From Amycolatopsis solani (GTDB taxonomy: Bacteria > Actinomycetota > Actinomycetes > Mycobacteriales > Pseudonocardiaceae), in NCBI RefSeq assembly GCF_033441515.1, contig NZ_JAWQJT010000001.1, positions 2,294,001 to 2,358,000 of the forward strand: a stretch of 64,000 bases of DNA. The letters are read 5' to 3'. Position numbers and translations under genes: made by a program. The notes under the pieces are model-generated. The model ran no database searches and was not told where the DNA came from. It saw only the letters and a list, made by a program, of their open reading frames with translations. Shown piece after piece: positions 1,756-49,352 of this stretch; within the stretch, counting starts at the first letter, position 1, and each line of letters begins with the position of its first letter.

Positions 1756-2869
1756 TCGTCCGCTGGATCTCCGACGCGCCTTCGTAGATGCGCGGCGCGC
1801 GGACCTCGCGGTAGAGGTGCTCCAGCAGGTGCCCGCGCCGCAGCGCGCGGGCACCGTGGAGCTGGACCGCGGAGTCGACGACGAACTGCGCCGCCTCGGT
1901 CGCGAACAGCTTCGCCATCGCCGCGCGGCCGCCGAGGTTCTGCTCGCCGGCGTCGTACGCGCCCGCCGCCGCGTAGACCAGCAGCCGGGCGGCTTCCGTG
2001 CGCGTCGCCATCTCCGCCAGCGCGTGCGCCACCGCCTGCTGCTTGATCAGCGGGCCACCGAAGGCTTTCCGCTCGCCCGTGTGGTCCACAGTGGCGTCCA
2101 GCGCCGCCTGCGCCATGCCGACGGCGAACGCGCCGACGCTCGGGCGGAACAGGTCGAGCGTCCGCATCGCCACGGCGAAACCGCGGTTCTCCTCGCCGAG
2201 CAGTTCCTCGCGCCGGACCTCGACGCCGTCGAACGTCACCGTGCCGATCGGGTGCGGGCTCACCAGGTCGAGGTGCTCGCCGCCGAGGCCGGGCCGGTCG
2301 GCCGGGACGACGAACGCGCTCACCCCGCGGGAGCCGGCGTCCGGGGTCGTGCGGGCGAACACCGTGTAGAAGTCCGCTTCCGGCGCGTTCGAGATCCACA
2401 TCTTCTCGCCGGTCAGGCGCCAGCCGTCGCCGTCGGGCTCGGCCCGCAGGGACAACGCCGCCGCGTCCGAACCGGCGTCCGGCTCGGTCAACGCGAACGC
2501 CGCCACCGCGTCGCCGGCCGCCACCGCGGGCAGCCACGTCGCGACCTGTCCGTCCTGTCCGGACTGCAGGATCGGATAACTTCCCAGTCCCTGCAACGCC
2601 AGCGCGGTCTCGGCTTCGGTGCTCACCGTGGCCAGGTTCTCACGCAGGATGCACAGGTCCGTCGCGGCCGCCTGCCTCGACGGCGTGCCTTCGGCGACTC
2701 CGGGGAACAACCGTGCGAGCAGGCCGAGCGCGCCCATCGCCTTGAGCAGCGGGCGGTTCACCGCACCCTCCACACCGGACTCGGCGAGCGGGCGCAGCTG
2801 CTCCTCGGCCAGCCGTCGGACCTCCGCGGCGAAGGCCTGCTGTTCGGCGGTCAAAGCGAAAGCGGTCAT
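1703..2869 (-). CDS. Acyl-CoA dehydrogenase
   Basis: A 388-residue protein of normal family length, predicted to oxidise an acyl-CoA to an enoyl-CoA using FAD and an electron-transfer flavoprotein. AFALTEPDAGSDAA and GEKMWISNAPEAD are the FAD/substrate-binding signatures. IYEGASEIQRTI near the C-terminus contains the region of the catalytic base. The start is the ATG at 2869, which overlaps the stop of the upstream flavoprotein gene as ATGA; a longer in-frame ORF upstream is antisense to that gene. The coupling implies it acts on a product of the upstream monooxygenase/reductase pathway, or on a related ring-derived acyl-CoA. This is inferred from context only. Confidence 0.93.
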   Translation of the reverse strand: MTAFALTAEQQAFAAEVRRLAEEQLRPLAESGVEGAVNRPLLKAMGALGLLARLFPGVAEGTPSRQAAATDLCILRENLATVSTEAETALALQGLGSYPILQSGQDGQVATWLPAVAAGDAVAAFALTEPDAGSDAAALSLRAEPDGDGWRLTGEKMWISNAPEADFYTVFARTTPDAGSRGVSAFVVPADRPGLGGEHLDLVSPHPIGTVTFDGVEVRREELLGEENRGFAVAMRTLDLFRPSVGAFAVGMAQAALDATVDHTGERKAFGGPLIKQQAVAHALAEMATRTEAARLLVYAAAGAYDAGEQNLGGRAAMAKLFATEAAQFVVDSAVQLHGARALRRGHLLEHLYREVRAPRIYEGASEIQRTIIARWLASSASGRATTD

Positions 2870-5208
2870 CGCGAAGCTCCCGGTCGCCAGCGAGCATGGG
2901 CGGTTCCCACCGTGCCGGACCGGACGAGGTCGAGGCGCGGCTCCGGCCCGTCGCTGCGGCCGGTCTGGGGTTTGCGGCGGCCCGCGGCGAACGGCTTCGG
3001 CCACGCCATCGGGTAGTCCTGCTCGGCCGCCGCGTGCAGCGTCCACTGTGGATCGTAGAGGTGGGTGCGGCCCAGTGCGCAGAGGTCCGCGCGCCCGGCG
3101 AGGATCAGGGAGTTCACGTCGTCGTACGACGAGATCGCGCCGACCGCGATCACCGCGATCCCGTACTCTTCGCCGATTTCGTTGCGGATCCGGTCCGCGT
3201 ACGGCGTCTGGTAGCTGCGGCCGTACTGCGGTCGTTCTTCGCTGACAACCTGCCCGGTCGAGACGTCGATGCCCGCGGCGCCGTGGGACGCGAACGCGCG
3301 CGCGATCTCGACGGCGTCGTCGGCATCGATGCCGCCCTCGCACCAGTCGGTCGCCGAAATCCGGACGGTCATCGGCCGCTCGGCGGGCCAGGCGGCGCGG
3401 ACCGCGTCGAAGACCTCCAAGGGAAAACGCAGCCGGTTCTCCAGTGAACCGCCGTAGGTATCGGTGCGCTGATTGGTCAGCGGGGAGAGGAACGACGACA
3501 GCAGGTAGCCGTGCGCGCAGTGCAGTTCGAGGACGTCGAACCCGGCGCGGGCGGCCGCTTGCGCGCACGCGACGAACTGGTCCCGGATCTCCGCGAGGTC
3601 CGCTGTGGACAGTTCGCGGGGGACCTGGTTCCGCGCGGAGTAGGGCAGTGCCGAAGGGGCGCAGACTTCCCAGTTGCCCGCGGGGAGCGGCTCGTCGATG
3701 CCGTCCCACATCAGCTTCGTCGAGCCCTTGCGGCCGGAGTGTCCCAATTGGACACCGATGCGCGCGGACGACTGCGTGTGCACGAAGTCGACGACCCGTT
3801 TCCACGCGGCTTCCTGCTCGGCGGTGTACAACCCGCCGCAGCCGGGTGTGATCCGGCCTTCAGGGGAAACGCACACCATCTCGGTCATCACCAGCCCGGC
3901 GCCGCCCAGTGCCTTGCTGCCCAGGTGCACCAGGTGGAAGTCGCCGGGCACACCGTCCACAGCGGAATACATGTCCATCGGGGACACGACGATCCGGTTC
4001 GGCAGTTCCAGCGCACCGAGCCGGAACGGCTGGAACATCGGCGGCCGCGACGTCGTCCCGAGCGACCGCGCGAACCAGTGGTCCAGCTCGGTGGCGAACT
4101 CCGGGTCGCGCAGGCGGAGGTTGTCGTAGGTGACGCGGCGGCTGCGTGTGAGGAGGTTGAACGCGAACTGCGGCGGTTCCTGGTGGGCGTACTGCGCGAT
4201 GTTCTCGAACCACTCGAGGCTGGCCTGCGCGGCGCGCTGCGTCGACGTGACGACCGGCCGCCGTTCCAGCTCGTAGGCCTTGAGCGCCGCCGTGACGCCG
4301 TCGTTCTCGTGCAGGCACGCGGCGAGCGCGAGGGCGTCCTCCATCGCCAGCTTCGTGCCGGAGCCGATCGAAAAGTGCGCGGTGTGCGCCGCGTCGCCGA
4401 GGAGGACGACGTTCTCGTGCACCCACGTTTCGCAGCGGACCGTGCCGAACGAAACCCACTTCGAGTTGTTCGCCAGCACCTGGTGGCCGTCCAGGACGTC
4501 GGCGCACAGCTCGCGGATCAGCGCGATCGACGGCTCGTCGCTCTCGCCCGGCTTGAGCGAGGCCGCCGCGACCGGGGCGAACGTCCGCTGCCAGACGTCC
4601 TCCTGGACCTCGAGGATGAACGTGCTGCCGTCGCGCCCGTAGGGGTAGCCGTGGATCTGCATGATCCCGGCCGGCGTCTCGAGGACGTGGAACTTGAAGG
4701 CGTCGAACACCAGGTCCGTGCCCAGCCAGATGTAGCGGCAGCGGCGGGTCTCGACGCTCGGCCGGAACGTCTCGGCGTACCGGGTGCGGACCGCGGAGTT
4801 GAGACCGTCGGCGGCGACGACGAGGTCGTAGCCCGAAAGGTCCGCCGGCGCTTCTTCGTGGAAGTGCAGCCCGACGCCGAGTTCGCCGCAGCGGCTCTGC
4901 AGGATGCCGAGCAGGCGCTTGCGGCTCATCGCGGCGAAGCCGTGGCCGCCCGAGGTGGTGACGGTGCCGCGGTAGTGGACGTCGATGTCGTCCCAGCGCG
5001 CGAACTCGGCCTTCATGGCCTCGTGCACCGCCGCGTCGGCGTGCTCGATGCCGCCGAGCGTCTCGTCGGAGAACACGACGCCGAAGCCGAACGTGTCGTC
5101 CGGGGCGTTGCGCTCCCAGACCGTGATTTCGTGGCCGGGACCGAGCTGTTTCGCCAGCGCGGCGAAGTACAGGCCCGCCGGGCCGCCGCCGATGACCGCG
5201 ATACGCAC
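2866..5208 (-). CDS. Fused flavin monooxygenase / old yellow enzyme (salicylyl-CoA 5-hydroxylase or anthraniloyl-CoA monooxygenase type)
   Basis: A 780-residue natural fusion. Residues 1 to about 370 form an aromatic-ring hydroxylase of the PHBH type, with a dinucleotide-binding GGGPAGLY near the start and the second FAD motif GDAAHTAHF near residue 285. Residues from about 390 to the end form an old-yellow-enzyme NADH:flavin oxidoreductase barrel (LGALELPNRIVVSPM, FDVLELHCAHGYLLSSFLSP, GGSLENRLRFP). This architecture is known from 2-aminobenzoyl-CoA monooxygenase/reductase and from proteins annotated as salicylyl-CoA 5-hydroxylase/oxidoreductase. It hydroxylates, and in the former case also reduces, a CoA-activated aromatic acid. 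The start is GTG at 5208. The gene heads an operon with the acyl-CoA dehydrogenase and is divergent from RidA. No CoA ligase is in the window, so the substrate is unresolved. Confidence 0.9.
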   Translation of the reverse strand: MRIAVIGGGPAGLYFAALAKQLGPGHEITVWERNAPDDTFGFGVVFSDETLGGIEHADAAVHEAMKAEFARWDDIDVHYRGTVTTSGGHGFAAMSRKRLLGILQSRCGELGVGLHFHEEAPADLSGYDLVVAADGLNSAVRTRYAETFRPSVETRRCRYIWLGTDLVFDAFKFHVLETPAGIMQIHGYPYGRDGSTFILEVQEDVWQRTFAPVAAASLKPGESDEPSIALIRELCADVLDGHQVLANNSKWVSFGTVRCETWVHENVVLLGDAAHTAHFSIGSGTKLAMEDALALAACLHENDGVTAALKAYELERRPVVTSTQRAAQASLEWFENIAQYAHQEPPQFAFNLLTRSRRVTYDNLRLRDPEFATELDHWFARSLGTTSRPPMFQPFRLGALELPNRIVVSPMDMYSAVDGVPGDFHLVHLGSKALGGAGLVMTEMVCVSPEGRITPGCGGLYTAEQEAAWKRVVDFVHTQSSARIGVQLGHSGRKGSTKLMWDGIDEPLPAGNWEVCAPSALPYSARNQVPRELSTADLAEIRDQFVACAQAAARAGFDVLELHCAHGYLLSSFLSPLTNQRTDTYGGSLENRLRFPLEVFDAVRAAWPAERPMTVRISATDWCEGGIDADDAVEIARAFASHGAAGIDVSTGQVVSEERPQYGRSYQTPYADRIRNEIGEEYGIAVIAVGAISSYDDVNSLILAGRADLCALGRTHLYDPQWTLHAAAEQDYPMAWPKPFAAGRRKPQTGRSDGPEPRLDLVRSGTVGTAHARWRPGASR

Positions 5209-43910: not shown

Positions 43911-44261
43911 GTGACACGACGTTCGCCGAAGCAGCTGGTCGGCCGGTGGCGGCTGGTGGCCATGAGCGGCTGGGGCCCTGAAGCGGTCGACCTGGACGGC
44001 CCCGGTTTCATCGAGTTCGCCGCCGACGGGACCGGGCAGGTCGGGTTCATCGCCGTCACCGGGTGGCTGGACTGCCGTGCGATCGAGCGCGACGGTTCAC
44101 CCGGCGTCGAGTTCACCTGGGAAGGTGTCGACGAGGGCGACCAGGTCAGTGGACGAGGCTGGGCGGTCCTGGTCGGCGACACGATCGAGGGGCACCTGTT
44201 CTTCCACTTGGGAGACGACTCGAGCTTCCGAGCGAAGCCGTTCACCGGCGGTGAGTCGTGA
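43911..44261 (+). CDS. Small uncharacterised beta-rich protein
   Basis: A 116-residue protein. QLVGRWRLVAMSGWGPEAVDLDGPGFIEFAADGTGQVGFIAVTGWLDC, then a series of predicted strands ending in GHLFFHLGDDSSFRAK, suggests a small lipocalin-like barrel. The start is GTG at 43911, and the stop overlaps the next GTG (GTGA), so it is co-translated with the following gene. No signal peptide or catalytic motif is visible. No function is assigned. Confidence 0.7.
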   Translation: MTRRSPKQLVGRWRLVAMSGWGPEAVDLDGPGFIEFAADGTGQVGFIAVTGWLDCRAIERDGSPGVEFTWEGVDEGDQVSGRGWAVLVGDTIEGHLFFHLGDDSSFRAKPFTGGES

Positions 44262-45169
44262 GCGAATACCAGTACTACGAGTTCCTGGCGATCGACCGGC
44301 CATTGGACGACGCCGAACAAGCCACGATCCGGTCGTTGTCCACGCGGGCGACCATCAGCGCCACCAGCTTCGTGAACGAGTATGACTGGGGCGACTTCAA
44401 GGGTGATCCGCGCGATCTGATGGAGCGCTACTACGACGCGCACCTGTACGTCGCCAATTGGGGCAGCCACCGCGTGATGTTCCGCCTGCCGGGTGGCTCG
44501 CTCGAGCTGGACGTCGTGGAGGACTACTGCGTCGGCGTCGGGGTGAGCGCCTGGGAGACAGGCGAGTTCATCGTGCTCGATTTCACCAGCGAAGACGACG
44601 ACGAGGATTTCGACTACGACTCCGAGAGCTTGCTGTCGGCGATCGTCGGAGTCCGTGCCGAACTCGCCGCCGGCGACCTCCGACCGCTTTACCTCGCCTG
44701 GCTGGCTGCTTACGGCGCTTGGGAGCGCGACGAGGACGCCTTCGACCGTGAAGCCGACGACGATCTCGAACCGCCGGTTCCGCCCGGGTTGGGCACGCTC
44801 ACCGCGGCGCAGCGAGCGCTCGCGGACTTTCTCCGTCTCGACGACGACCTCCTAGCCGTCGCGTCCGAGGCTTCTCCGCCGCTCGACGCCGACAATCCCG
44901 ACGACCTGGCTGCTTGGGTCATCGACCTGCCGGCCGCCGAGAAGGACACGCTCCTCGCCCGGGTCATGCTGGGTGAAGGCGTACGAGTGCGGATGGAGCT
45001 GCTGCACCGCTACCGCGGTGACACCGCTCCGGCCGACCCGCGCCCAGCCCGCCGGACCGTGGCCAACCTGCTGGACGCCACGGCAGGTCGGCGGACAGTT
45101 GGCGAACGTCGCGTAGCGCGCCGGCACGCTGAAGCTGGGGAACGCGCGCATTCAGTGGCGCACGAGTGA
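44258..45169 (+). CDS. Uncharacterised protein, possibly C-terminally altered
   Basis: A 303-residue protein. The N-terminal SEYQYYEFLAIDRPLDDAEQ, TSFVNEYDWGDFKGDPRDLMERYYDAHLYVANWG and the acidic EDDDEDFDYD stretch match a conserved but unnamed actinobacterial family. From memory of that family the C-terminus usually continues as a long charged helix. Here the last 25 residues (GERRVARRHAEAGERAHSV...) look out of register, so a late frameshift or truncation is possible. It lies 180 bp from the left att site of the tRNA-Arg element. Co-translated with the preceding small gene. Function is unknown. Confidence 0.65.
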   Translation: MSEYQYYEFLAIDRPLDDAEQATIRSLSTRATISATSFVNEYDWGDFKGDPRDLMERYYDAHLYVANWGSHRVMFRLPGGSLELDVVEDYCVGVGVSAWETGEFIVLDFTSEDDDEDFDYDSESLLSAIVGVRAELAAGDLRPLYLAWLAAYGAWERDEDAFDREADDDLEPPVPPGLGTLTAAQRALADFLRLDDDLLAVASEASPPLDADNPDDLAAWVIDLPAAEKDTLLARVMLGEGVRVRMELLHRYRGDTAPADPRPARRTVANLLDATAGRRTVGERRVARRHAEAGERAHSVAHE

Positions 45170-45348: not shown

Positions 45349-45388
45349 TTGTGCCCCCGGCAGGATTCGAACCTGCGACACCCGCTTT
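45349..45388 (-). repeat. Left attachment site: 40-bp copy of the tRNA-Arg 3' half
   Basis: Identical over 40 bp to 47737-47776. It contains the tRNA 3' end, whole T-arm, variable region and 3' side of the anticodon arm, but no D-arm or 5' acceptor strand. It is therefore an att copy and not a tRNA gene. Confidence 0.92.
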
Positions 45389-45647
45389 TGTGGATCACGT
45401 CTTCTGTTGATCGTCGAGATTGATCGACATGTGCCGCCACCTGGGCAACCTGTCGGCTGCGGTGAGCTCGTACCCCTGGTTACTTGCGGTCATTTCGCGA
45501 CCATTGGCGAGGGTAAAGCGTGGGCAAGGGCTCGACTGTTCGATGTCGGTCGCGACAGAACACCGAACACCTGAATCGAGGGCCCCCTCGCGCTAATTTG
45601 GTCGTCATCAGACCTGCGCACTGGGCTTCGAGAATAAGTTGATTCGC

Positions 45648-47099
45648 TTAATCGCCTTTCAGGCGAGTTGTGCTCGCCTTTGATTTCCTGAAAGTTTCAA
45701 ATCGAGAACCGGGCCACGGGTAGCGACAGTTGTCCATGTTTGCAAGGTCAAATATAAACTTCTGGTGATCGTGCAGTTTGGAATGCAGAAAATCTTTACT
45801 GACGCCAATTTCGAGTAAAAGAATGATTCGAAGAGCCCAGTCCATCGATTTTGCAAGCTGATAGTAGCGGTCGGTGCGTTCCTGGTAGTCGGGCACCGGT
45901 TTCGCGAAACGGTGTGCTTCGAGATTCCGGGCGGCTACGACCAGTCGAATCCATTCGCTGTGATCGATCCCGATTAATCCAGGGGCGACTTCCTCGACGG
46001 GGGGCAAGATTTCTTCCAGTCGCTCACCGAGCGTTTTCTCGTTGAAAATCTTGAACTTGTCCGTAAGTCTGACGACTGCCTGGGTGCCCTCTGCTTTGCT
46101 GACCTCTCCCATTTCGATTAGCTCTTCAATAATCATCTGTGCCGATCTCTTTGCAATCTTTCGCGTCCGGTTTGTTGAGATTGCAGGAAATGGCTTGGAC
46201 TCTTCGTGGCACCGGTAGTGGATCCCTTCGAGGCAGCTTGCGCTCGCCAGAAGGGCTGCTTCGATTGTCATTGTTTCAAACTTGTCGCGACTTGCAATGT
46301 CGGGAATAGGTGCGAGCTTATCAAATAGGGAAAGTGCGTCGGCCATAATTTCCAAGCTGAGAGCACTTAGTGGCAAGAGGCACTGGCTCAGATGGAACTC
46401 CGATGCTGGGGAGACACCCCGGAATCTGACTAACTCTGCCCAGTCTTCGTGATCGTTGGTCTGCAGCTGGACGCGCTTGTCAACTCCTATTTCGACATCG
46501 GTCCAAAGTCGAAGTAGGGTGATGATTCGATTCCAGTACCTGCGGTCAAGATCTTTGAGGATGAGGCCATTTTCTTCCGATGGTGTCATTTCTAGCCATC
46601 CAATTCCGCCTTCCAGTGCTCCCTTCATTCTGCCTTGGAATTTGTGCATCGATATCTCAACGTTGTTTGGGTTAGAAAATAGCCTTGGACAATGCCGTGT
46701 AATAGGGATTGATACTCGAACTCTGCGAAAAACTGTGTTATCGGGTAAGATGTGGGCGCCGATAATTGCCTGCGTGGCCGTAAAGCTCTGCGTGTTGAAC
46801 TCGTGTGGGTTGTCGTCGGCCCGGGCGTCTATAAGGGTTACAATCCGTCCATCGTCCAGCTGGCCGTGGATTGGAGTAGGGTTATAGTCAACAACAATAT
46901 CCTTCGGATTCCCAAACTCTGTTGCCATAAATTGGCCAGTTACTATTCGGCGGACTGACCTCGGCGGCTGAAGGACTCCATCTAGGTCGAGCTGTAGTCC
47001 CGGACTGGTGATTGTCGCCCGTCCGGTAGTGCTCAACGAGCCCGGAATCCAGAATTCGCCCTGGCTCCCATCAAAATCCACGTTGAGAGGTTCTAGCAT
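45648..47099 (-). CDS. ApeA-like HEPN-domain protein (putative anti-phage ribonuclease)
   Basis: A 483-residue protein with AT-richer codons than any neighbour, a sign of recent transfer. Residues 1 to about 240 are beta-rich (GEFWIPGSLSTTGRATITSPGLQLDLDGVLQPP...) and resemble the ApeA N-terminal domain. Residues about 275-460 are helical. They contain R391-N-L-E-A-H396 (AARNLEAHRF), the R-x4-H catalytic motif of HEPN ribonucleases, preceded by a long helical hairpin with EGIHYRCHEES. ApeA is a single-gene anti-phage system with this two-part layout. The ATG at 47099 lacks a clear ribosome-binding site and may be leaderless. It is the only intact gene in the tRNA-Arg element. Confidence 0.75.
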   Translation of the reverse strand: MLEPLNVDFDGSQGEFWIPGSLSTTGRATITSPGLQLDLDGVLQPPRSVRRIVTGQFMATEFGNPKDIVVDYNPTPIHGQLDDGRIVTLIDARADDNPHEFNTQSFTATQAIIGAHILPDNTVFRRVRVSIPITRHCPRLFSNPNNVEISMHKFQGRMKGALEGGIGWLEMTPSEENGLILKDLDRRYWNRIITLLRLWTDVEIGVDKRVQLQTNDHEDWAELVRFRGVSPASEFHLSQCLLPLSALSLEIMADALSLFDKLAPIPDIASRDKFETMTIEAALLASASCLEGIHYRCHEESKPFPAISTNRTRKIAKRSAQMIIEELIEMGEVSKAEGTQAVVRLTDKFKIFNEKTLGERLEEILPPVEEVAPGLIGIDHSEWIRLVVAARNLEAHRFAKPVPDYQERTDRYYQLAKSMDWALRIILLLEIGVSKDFLHSKLHDHQKFIFDLANMDNCRYPWPGSRFETFRKSKASTTRLKGD

Positions 47100-47177
47100 T
47101 GTGAGAACATATCACTGCGGGTCGGATCGCAGGGCTACTGCGAACAGTCACCAGATGCAGCTCTCAATCAAGTGGGT

Positions 47178-47323
47178 GGCCTTTCGGCATCTCGACGACC
47201 TGGCGCAGCCCGATCACGCTGTGTCAAGGGGGCACTTTCCGATCAACCGCCGCTTACCTGTGCGGCTGCCCCCTTGACACAGCGTGATAGCCCTCCGGGA
47301 GGTTGTCGAGATGCCGTTTGGCC
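47178..47323. repeat. Large inverted repeat inside the tRNA-Arg element
   Basis: Perfect 22-bp arms (ATCACGCTGTGTCAAGGGGG, then CA, at 47213-47234, against 47267-47288) enclose a 32-nt loop with its own GCCGC/GCGGC hairpin. Outside them symmetry resumes: CGGCATCTCGACGACCT on the left matches the complement of 47298-47316 with one mismatch. The whole structure is about 146 bp and could form a cruciform. It occupies most of the gene-free stretch 47100-47514. Confidence 0.85.
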
Positions 47324-47520
47324 GCACACGGACGCGACAGCCGCGCACGTCCGGCCATCTCGATGATCTGCCCGTCCGGCGAGGACATTCTTTCTTTCTT
47401 CTTGAGCTGTGGCTCCCGGTGCAGTCGCCGGCCGGTCGCGTGGGTGCCGGAGGCGGGCCCCGCGCGTGCCGGCCGATAGCGGCGCGGCCCCGGAGGGGCC
47501 GCCTTGAACAAGAAAAGAAA

Positions 47521-47685
47521 CTCTATGATGCCGGCCTGACCGCTCGCGAGATCGCCGACTATCTGGGACACGAGCGAATCAGCACGACTCAAGAGGACTA
47601 CATGGAACGCGGTGTTGTCGGCGAAGACGTCGGTCCGGCTTTGGCTGAGCGTCCGAAGATCGAGCTTCCCAAAGAAGAGGGTTAA
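47521..47685 (+). pseudogene. C-terminal remnant of a tyrosine integrase
   Basis: The last 54 residues of an integrase: LYDAGLTAREIADYLGHERI then STTQEDYMERGVVGE. LGH supplies the box II His and Tyr in TTQEDY is the nucleophile. The box I Arg, HxxR and the whole N-terminal and core domains are missing. Upstream, the frame runs into unrelated GC-rich sequence with a CGGCCCCGGAGGGGCCG hairpin, so the gene was truncated by a rearrangement. It ends 51 bp before the tRNA-side att site, the usual place for the integrase of a tRNA-directed element. It cannot be catalytically active. Confidence 0.85.
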
Positions 47686-47708
47686 GCGAGGGTTGGCCTA
47701 GCGCGAAG

Positions 47709-47738
47709 CCCCTGGTCATGACCCCGACCAGGGGTTTT
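47709..47738 (+). terminator. Rho-independent terminator after the integrase remnant
   Basis: A perfect 9-bp stem (CCCCTGGTC/GACCAGGGG), 8-nt loop and TTTT tail, running into the tRNA-proximal att site. Confidence 0.8.
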
Positions 47739-47776
47739 GTGCCCCCGGCAGGATTCGAACCTGCGACACCCGCTTT
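47737..47776 (-). repeat. Right attachment site within tRNA-Arg
   Basis: 40 bp identical to 45349-45388. It spans from just past the tRNA 3' end to the anticodon loop, a typical crossover region for tyrosine integrases. Confidence 0.92.
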
Positions 47777-47812
47777 AGGAGAGCGGTGCTCTATCCCCTG
47801 AGCTACGAGGGC
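47740..47812 (-). tRNA. tRNA-Arg (anticodon CCT)
   Basis: A 73-nt cloverleaf on the minus strand: acceptor GCCCTCG/CGGGGGC (one T-G pair), D-stem GCTC/GAGC, anticodon stem CCGCT/AGCGG with loop CTCCTAA (anticodon CCT, reading AGG), T-arm GCAGG-TTCGAAT-CCTGC, discriminator A. CCA is not encoded. It is intact despite serving as the integration target of the adjacent element. Confidence 0.97.
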
Positions 47813-48743: not shown

Positions 48744-49352
48744 ATGCTGCTCACGGCGCTGGAGTTCGTCGGGCTCGTCGCCTTCGCCGCGTCCGGGGCG
48801 CTCGCCGCCGTGCGGGCGCGGCTCGATGTCTTCGGGGTGGTCGTGGTGGGGCTCACGACCGCGCTCGGGGGCGGGGTCATCCGGGACGTCCTCCTCGGCA
48901 TCCACCCGCCGACGACGTTGCGGAACTGGCCCTACCTCGCCGTCTGCGCCGGGACCGCGCTCGTCGTCTTCGCCTTCCACCCGCAGGTCGCGCGGTTGCG
49001 GCGGGGCGTCCTCCTCGCGGACGCGCTCGGGCTCGGGGTCTTCGCCACCGCCGGGACGACCATCGCGATCGACGCCGGCGCGACCGTGTACGCCGCGTGC
49101 CTGATCGGGATGACGACCGGGATCGGGGGTGGCGCCGTGCGCGATCTGCTGCTCCGGGAAATCCCCCTCGTCCTGCGGAAGGAGATCTACGCCGTGGCCG
49201 CGCTGGCCGGGTCGGTGCTCGTCGCCGTCGGTCACGCTCTGCGGCTGCCTGCCGGGCCGGTAACCGTTTTCTCGGCCGCCGCCGTGGTCGCCGTCCGCAT
49301 CATCGCGCTGTGGCAGCACTGGAACGCCCCCGTCGCGCGGGCGCCGGAGTGA
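48744..49352 (+). CDS. TRIC / UPF0126-family membrane protein
   Basis: A 202-residue protein made of two homologous halves of three helices, the duplicated UPF0126 (YicG/TRIC) layout. LVAFAASGALAAVRARLDVFGVVVVGLTTALGGGVIRDVLLG in the first half is echoed by TAGTTIAIDAGATVYAACLIGMTTGIGGGAVRDLLLREIP in the second. The GGG-x-[IV]-RD motif appears in both. Prokaryotic TRIC proteins form trimeric monovalent cation channels. It starts 3 bp after the response regulator stop. Confidence 0.9.
   Translation: MLLTALEFVGLVAFAASGALAAVRARLDVFGVVVVGLTTALGGGVIRDVLLGIHPPTTLRNWPYLAVCAGTALVVFAFHPQVARLRRGVLLADALGLGVFATAGTTIAIDAGATVYAACLIGMTTGIGGGAVRDLLLREIPLVLRKEIYAVAALAGSVLVAVGHALRLPAGPVTVFSAAAVVAVRIIALWQHWNAPVARAPE

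Follow-up and report, generated by a model that had tools for sequence, protein, structure and literature searches.

Decay of an actinomycete integrative and conjugative element in Amycolatopsis solani, probably starting at its replication nick, and the candidate defence gene left behind

Introduction

How does a defence gene come to part from the mobile element that carried it? The question is raised by a 2.39-kb segment in the genome of Amycolatopsis solani (Actinomycetota; Pseudonocardiaceae), which is bounded by two copies of the 3' end of tRNA-Arg(CCT) and holds a single intact gene together with the tail of an integrase. The segment lies in a window of 64,000 nucleotides (contig NZ_JAWQJT010000001.1 of RefSeq assembly GCF_033441515.1, positions 2,294,001 to 2,358,000 of the forward strand), and all coordinates below are positions within that window. 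Sequence comparison identifies the segment as an actinomycete integrative and conjugative element (AICE), shortened by an internal deletion and seated in the 3' end of the tRNA gene. It seems that a self-transmissible element of about 12 kb was stripped of its mobility genes by a single clean deletion, with its ends, its probable replication origins and a likely defence gene remaining. Such decay probably starts at the replication nick of the element itself and leaves a single-cargo island.

The Integration Site and the Missing Block

The two copies of the bounding repeat, attL at 45349-45388 and attR at 47737-47776 (neither assigned a strand), are each 40 bp long and identical. The right copy overlaps the intact integration target, a tRNA-Arg(CCT) gene at 47739-47812 on the minus strand; 38 of its 40 bp are the 3' part of that gene, and the remaining 2 bp lie just outside it. 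A perfect 40-bp repeat equal to half a tRNA is far beyond chance, and its position at the tRNA 3' end indicates that attL and attR derive from one integration target. Only one long open reading frame (ORF) lies between the copies, at 45648-47099 on the minus strand, encoding 483 amino acids; the stretch that holds it has a GC content of 49-52%, against approximately 62-77% outside. Towards attR, the last 54 residues of a tyrosine integrase remain (47525-47685, plus strand). These correspond to residues 368-421 of the 421-residue protein of relatives, with 96% identity, and the ORF that contains them (47284-47685) is a chimera across the deletion junction. An earlier, sequence-only reading of this DNA had described a perfect repeat equal to the 3' half of an intact tRNA-Arg, one AT-richer gene and a long inverted repeat between the copies, and an integrase of which only the last 54 residues are kept. 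Each of these observations is borne out here, the inverted repeat lying at 47172-47234 and 47267-47329.

The parent type of this element is present at the same site in relatives. A search with the conserved neighbour gene at 48744-49352 matched 79 of the 80 genus genomes returned, and 78 flank loci (L033-L110) were compared, the window's own locus being set aside. Elements of 11.8 kb (L039) and 12.3 kb (L052) occupy the same tRNA-Arg(CCT) with the same ends as the window element; in a third, of 10.6 kb (L070), the left att copy is imperfect, agreeing at 89.6% over 48 bp. Against L039 and L052 the window aligns as three blocks. The first is the left end, where 45350-45525 is 79% identical to L039 and 45351-45602 is 83% identical to the intact element of L052; 45389-45602 (no strand) is the conserved left end of the element itself. 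The second block (47170-47524) and the third (47525 onward, to 48080) abut in the window, and lie 9,582 bp apart in L039, 10,005 bp apart in L052 and approximately 9.3 kb apart in L070. The deletion junction is therefore placed at 47524/47525 (no strand). Relative to L039 and L052, the parental integration and transfer genes are gone with the absent 9.6-10.0 kb, apart from the integrase tail. The L052 element encodes RepSA (Pfam PF20199, 1.3e-148), an FtsK_SpoIIIE protein, a GntR/UTRA protein, a DUF218 protein and a Phage_integrase protein. A RepSA-type rep, an FtsK-type tra and a tyrosine int mark the parent type as an AICE, and the genes of L052 match the core AICE gene set (PMC3218068; PMC11706625). 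In the parent-type element the NCBIfam RepSA equivalog scores 463.5 bits, below its cut-off of 700.

At four of the 78 flank loci (L048, L053, L054 and L061) the left neighbour gene (44258-45169 in the window) adjoins the tRNA; 73-319 bp between the aligned flanks lack a match, and the fetched stretches show no additional att copy. The site is thus empty in some relatives, occupied by a full element in others, and occupied by a stripped one in the window. Comparison of the tRNA-Arg locus across relatives yields both empty sites and sites with other cargo; neither a segment universal among them with vertical descent nor a relative in which the repeat is absent as a boundary was found. The earlier suggestion of an element stripped to one cargo gene gains support from the intact elements of about 12 kb, of the same type and at the same tRNA. 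Separately, L091 (G009) has tRNA-Arg(CCT) twice in full, in one orientation and 3.5 kb apart, and L038, L041 and L060 have reverse-complement tRNA pieces about 2.07 kb from a tRNA oriented opposite to the usual, possibly inversions.

A search of the window genome that did recover the 54-residue tail found no further integrase of this type. A search of the same genome for RepSA gave no match; it had no positive control, though its query came from a RepSA-encoding genome. For want of both, the element looks stranded at present, and the earlier statement that it must be fixed or moved in trans is sound.

Candidate Replication Origins

The block to the left of the junction (47170-47524, hereafter the module) contains the long inverted repeat and a second hairpin. 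Beyond what the sequence-only reading had proposed, these two are probably replication origins. The second hairpin is a GC hairpin ending in CTTG (47486-47506, plus strand), a candidate double-strand origin (dso) nick region with the predicted nick at 47506^47507; of the conserved stretch to the right of the nick, the window keeps the first 18 nt (47507-47524, plus strand). In short form, the candidate RepSA nick region is hairpin-CTTGAACAAG. L039 and most other intact elements carry GGCCCCGGAGGGGCCGCCTTG^AACAAGAAAAGAAACTCTGAACAC, while L159, L193 and L196 vary. RepSA nicks a dso, and the nick sites of AICEs resemble those of the pC194 family (PMC3218068); the pC194 site, read on the nicked strand, is CTTG^ATAATA (PMC5037232). 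Two RepSA plasmids from outside the genus (L230 and L231, recorded as Kutzneria and Streptomyces) have the same sequence arrangement beside a GntR gene, namely an 8-bp stem with a 3-nt loop and then CTTG^A, with stem letters that differ from those of the genus hairpin. Three looser candidates in these two plasmids also pass the threshold. Seven candidates pass it in the 64-kb window, where the one at 47503 alone combines a perfect 8-bp stem, a 3-nt loop and no spacer. The hairpin of 8 bp and the CTTG^A after it agree with what is expected of the RepSA nick site.

The long inverted repeat consists of two 63-nt arms that are 81% complementary, and its fold has a free energy of -63.9 kcal/mol (z = -10). 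For an alignment of homologues, 36 of 48 matches were used, 12 being dropped as reverse-strand palindrome matches; matches covering less than 145 nt of the query were excluded. Across the 36 homologues 98.3% of the cells of 50 pairs are paired, compared with 33-50% in slid controls, and at 13 pairs both partners have changed, where shuffling gives a mean of 5.4 (the observed count is reached in 0 of 500 shuffles). Mispairs number 95 for G-T and 13 for A-C, and this excess of G-T indicates that the structure is kept on the plus strand. The predicted nick lies on that same strand, which is also the strand that rolling-circle replication would displace. An orientation-specific single-strand origin (sso), with a function that is likely structure-dependent, has been described in an integrative and conjugative element (PMC4595007). 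Given a structure on the nicked strand and this precedent, the long hairpin (47172-47329, plus strand) is proposed as a candidate sso; an RNA hairpin would show the same covariation and wobble bias.

Recurrence of Short Elements

Short elements of this kind recur in the genus, a point that the sequence-only reading did not reach. They were sought in 80 genomes by copies of tRNA 3' ends (Arg-CCT, Pro-GGG and Leu-TAA), independently of the hairpin, and 40 att-delimited elements lying whole in the fetched stretches were examined; elements too large for those stretches fall outside these 40, and loci L158, L161, L164, L165 and L167-L169 outside the comparison. Nine are smaller than 3 kb, 10 measure 3-10 kb and 21 exceed 10 kb. 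Seven of the nine smallest contain the module (the window element, L157, L155, L160, L153, L152 and L163). The long hairpin is present in six, L163 keeping only the right part of the module with the CTTG hairpin. Among elements of 3-10 kb the module is found in one of 10 (L176, 8.9 kb), another of 5.7 kb holding a 57-bp piece; of those above 10 kb, 11 have it together with Rep, Tra and integrase matches. Short elements stand in tandem with larger att-flanked elements in G006, G029 and G077, and in G061 a short element with only the right part of the module lies beside a full AICE. L150 (G069) is a further short element. The left att copy was found neither for it nor for the short element of G061. 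Two other att-flanked elements below 3 kb, L190 (1.44 kb) and L191 (2.13 kb), do not have the module.

Selection could produce such a pattern, if the short form were a helper-dependent mini-AICE, a satellite kept for its cis-acting sites only (att, sso and dso) and moved by resident or incoming AICEs. The dso-like hairpin is retained in seven of the nine smallest att-flanked elements, and the long hairpin with it in six. Att-flanked elements with the module are either 1.65-2.4 kb or more than 11 kb in size, except for those of 8.9 and 5.7 kb, and the placements in G006, G029, G077 and G061 put a short form next to a larger element.

Where the Deletions Cut

In four short elements of the genus (L157, L155 and the short elements of L152 and L156) the left breakpoint falls exactly after CTTG. 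Among 390 family genomes, 62 contain the exact hairpin-CTTG pattern, with 80 occurrences in all. At 51 sites the second base after CTTG is A; the other 29 (in 26 genomes) were inspected singly, and by eye 21 have a native-looking continuation and eight do not. Since the pattern finds only cuts at the nick, eight of 29 is not a rate. These eight nick-junction elements comprise the four of the genus (here L202, L204, L215 and L213) together with L218, L219, L222 and L224, and by database labels they span four genera (g1, g11, g25 and g34). The sequence after CTTG is integrase gene in seven, as judged by tblastn for L202, L213, L215, L218 and L224 and by reading the translation for L219 and L222; in L204 it sets in where the integrase of the nearest full relative has its stop codon. 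The integrase occupies approximately 1.3 of the 10 kb or so from hairpin to attR, and evenly spread cuts would place all eight there with a chance of about 1e-7; selection for the loss of int could be another cause. Right breakpoints were located in 11 elements (these eight, the window, L153 and L160), and all lie in int or at its end.

Ordinary decay by unrelated deletions would make of the shared left breakpoint a hot spot arising from hairpin slippage or breaks. Streptomyces has known decayed AICEs that keep cargo, part of an integrase and two direct repeats (PMC9513070), junction microhomology is 0-3 nt, and several short elements break away from the nick, all of which suits such a view. 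It is nonetheless very improbable: the same left nucleotide is used in eight elements with different right ends, A comes next in seven of the eight, and slippage should strike in or at the stem, whereas the predicted nick is 4 nt beyond it.

A deletion beginning at the nick has its own difficulties. The left breakpoint of the window element lies 18 nt past the predicted nick, and only its right partner is of the CTTG/A type (the slash marking the cut); in L039 and L052 that partner reads CCTTG/ATGATG inside int, with no microhomology to the left side. Of the nine short module-bearing elements of the genus, four have the nick as their cut site; the window element is cut at +18, and L153, L160, L163 and L150 further right, the breakpoints of the last two not being locatable. 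In L157, the short element of L152, and L155 the right partners are CTCG/A or CCTG/A instead of CTTG, so that end joining with 2-3 nt of microhomology fits as well. Two of the nine (L163 and the short element of L156) have lost most or all of the long hairpin. Finally, no single alignment crosses the joined flanks of the four empty sites, as there is no conservation in the spacer next to the tRNA.

The breakpoints make the satellite reading improbable. Every located cut has cost the element its own integrase, and this speaks for fixation in the host over satellite life. Whenever the cut falls at the nick, the cargo side is spared, and the origin module would thus be kept automatically, selection being unnecessary. 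The two elements lacking most or all of the long hairpin take weight from it too, and in the window genome neither a RepSA match nor a second matching integrase was found. Given the tandem placement, mobilization in cis may yet occur.

With the nick-site deletion preferred, the history of the locus would run as follows. A RepSA-type AICE would have integrated at the 3' end of tRNA-Arg(CCT) with a single cargo gene, for an ApeA-like HEPN RNase, in a slot between attL and the replication origins. Later, a single internal deletion of about 10 kb would have taken out GntR, tra, rep and the greater part of int, so that attL, the cargo, the sso-like hairpin, the dso-like hairpin, 54 integrase residues and attR remained. 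We infer the roles of the hairpins as sso and dso, as well as the start of the deletion at the RepSA nick: RepSA would have cut at its nick site or a look-alike, and the ends would have been misjoined at CTTG^A, either through strand transfer by Rep or through end joining. Such a deletion would span everything between origin and integrase, keeping the cargo, the att sites and the origin side and no mobility gene. The cargo may kill or stall phage-infected cells by cutting RNA, and losing int and tra while keeping the cargo may benefit the host. Taken whole, this account of a decayed AICE of the cis-mobilizable type, stranded unless a related AICE arrives, is one that we regard as likely. A bolder version is tentative and somewhat doubtful, and is weakened by the same two elements without most or all of the long hairpin. 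In it the shedding would be built in: RepSA strand transfer between CTTG^A and G^A pseudo-sites in int would yield elements of 1.5-2.5 kb with att sites, cargo and origin, and rolling-circle replication would time and again produce single-gene defence islands at tRNA genes, a part of them still mobilizable as satellites of resident AICEs.

The Cargo Gene

The 483-residue cargo protein (45648-47099, minus strand) is an intact HEPN/ApeA-like protein and a probable anti-phage RNase, as judged from family matches and motif conservation. It combines a beta-rich N-terminal domain with a C-terminal HEPN domain bearing R391-N-x3-H396. The HEPN_Apea family of Pfam matches with 55.5 bits (cut-off 24.4). 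ApeA_NTD1 falls just short, with 25.0 bits against a cut-off of 25.5; relatives P0002 and P0003 carry this domain. The PADLOC matches are PDC-S58 (1.5e-10) and Cas13-ApeA (1.4e-6). Within the motif (R-N-L-E-A-H), R391 and H396 are invariant in all 14 aligned sequences, those of the window and 13 relatives, and N392 nearly so; P0012, which has no C-terminal half, was excluded from the alignment. In HEPN domains the Rx4-6H motif forms the RNase active site, and beta strands make up most of ApeA-NTD1 (PMC3710099). An AlphaFold model of the cargo (predicted local distance difference test, pLDDT, 83; predicted template modelling score, pTM, 0.78) is beta-rich at residues 12-173 and mostly helical after about residue 249. 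The cargo resembles the ApeA anti-phage protein (ApeA_NTD1 plus HEPN_Apea) in domain order, in the beta-rich character of its N-terminal domain and in the Rx4H motif. It differs in an N-terminal domain just below the cut-off and in a PADLOC placement nearer the candidate PDC-S58 than Cas13-ApeA. The impression of an anti-phage effector given in the earlier reading is supported by the HEPN_Apea match above cut-off and the conserved Rx4H.

Homologues of the cargo are rare, with at least 14 other proteins among the best 7,996 scored candidates of a 5.8-billion collection. Matches occur in eight of 390 family genomes, all but the window's own at 31% identity or less, and in five of 72,556 plasmid records (24-26% identity), all typed mobilizable. 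None was found in 50,697 phages and no viral contig matched; one genome contig did, at 27% identity.

The Cargo Slot

The stretch from attL to the origin hairpins varies in content between elements. Twenty proteins from 16 elements (nine short, including the window element, and seven full), chosen by eye as the longest or AT-rich ORFs, were scanned against Pfam and PADLOC; the slots of L039, L070, L166, L180, L193 and L196 lay outside the scan. A Pfam family above cut-off was found in eight of the 16 slots. These were HEPN_Apea in the window, RING in L157, PASTA in L163, DUF4145 in L153, HIT and ThsB_TIR in the short element of L156 (PADLOC ThsB 2.2e-64, ThsC 7.3e-13), DUF6414 in L150, AbiTii in the full element of L156, and HNH_2 with HTH_3 in L195. 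The scanned proteins of L155, L152 (short and full), L160, L154, L151, L159 and L052 matched no Pfam family above cut-off. Three of seven ordinary flanking genes reach 1e-4 or better in PADLOC through general domains; therefore only specific matches are counted as defence, and weak ones are uninformative. The slots of L039 and L195, at different tRNAs (Arg and Leu), share by eye one toxin-antitoxin-type trio, hinting at the movement of cargo between element types. In other genera, translations beside the hairpins read by eye as Fic, CadD and HTH genes, and the slot is therefore not reserved for defence. The short element of L156 (oriented 1831-3400, G061) has as its cargo a ThsB-type TIR gene and a ThsC-type HIT gene, with no ThsA in the stretch examined. 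A 1.65-kb element flanked by tRNA-Arg(CCT) att copies appears to carry a bacterial RING-finger protein (L157:3229-3774, G006) as its cargo.

These contents bear on whether the window cargo might be an addiction or housekeeping toxin of the element, and not a gene for phage defence. HEPN proteins also act as toxins (PMC3710099), and the slots of L039 and L195 hold what appears by eye to be a toxin-antitoxin-like pair. Between the att sites of the window, in contrast, no further gene that could encode an antitoxin is seen, single genes of the ApeA type are listed in defence catalogues, and the genes of other slots include ThsB/ThsC and AbiTii. A toxin is therefore unlikely, and phage defence is the preferred role.

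Relation to Known Elements and Significance

The window element itself is of a sort already known, a decayed AICE covered by the concept of the cis-mobilizable element (CIME; PMC9513070; PMC5704250). Decayed AICEs (DAICEs) of Streptomyces likewise have two direct repeats, a partial integrase, cargo, an empty site in sister strains and accretion at tRNA-Arg; the available text gives AICE and DAICE sizes of 11.9-36.3 kb and mentions no fixed breakpoint or origin module (PMC9513070). A CIME has similarly lost its integration and transfer genes, keeps attL and attR, and may stand in tandem with a full element (PMC5704250). The window element, by comparison, comes from a RepSA AICE, no helper was found in its genome, and its mobilization in cis is putative. 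The staphylococcal rolling-circle elements built as DSO-gene-SSO (qacC and lnuA; PMC5037232) share cargo beside dso and sso and a nick site of the CTTG^ATA type; here, however, the element is integrated and arranged as attL-cargo-sso-dso, and a cargo-keeping deletion takes the place of plasmid-to-plasmid transfer. The literature searched, which covered few subscription papers and is known here in part, contained no description of deletions fixed at an AICE nick site or of an attL-cargo-sso-dso slot. The new part would be the recurrent nick-site route.

For the question of how a defence gene parts from its mobile carrier, this route would provide a concrete answer, with the replication nick of the element itself as the breakpoint. 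The slot between attL and the origin hairpins is well defined, and unknown genes within it are promising places to look for new defence systems. As two sequence marks, the hairpin-CTTG and the covarying long hairpin may serve to find AICEs in genome data, intact and stripped alike.

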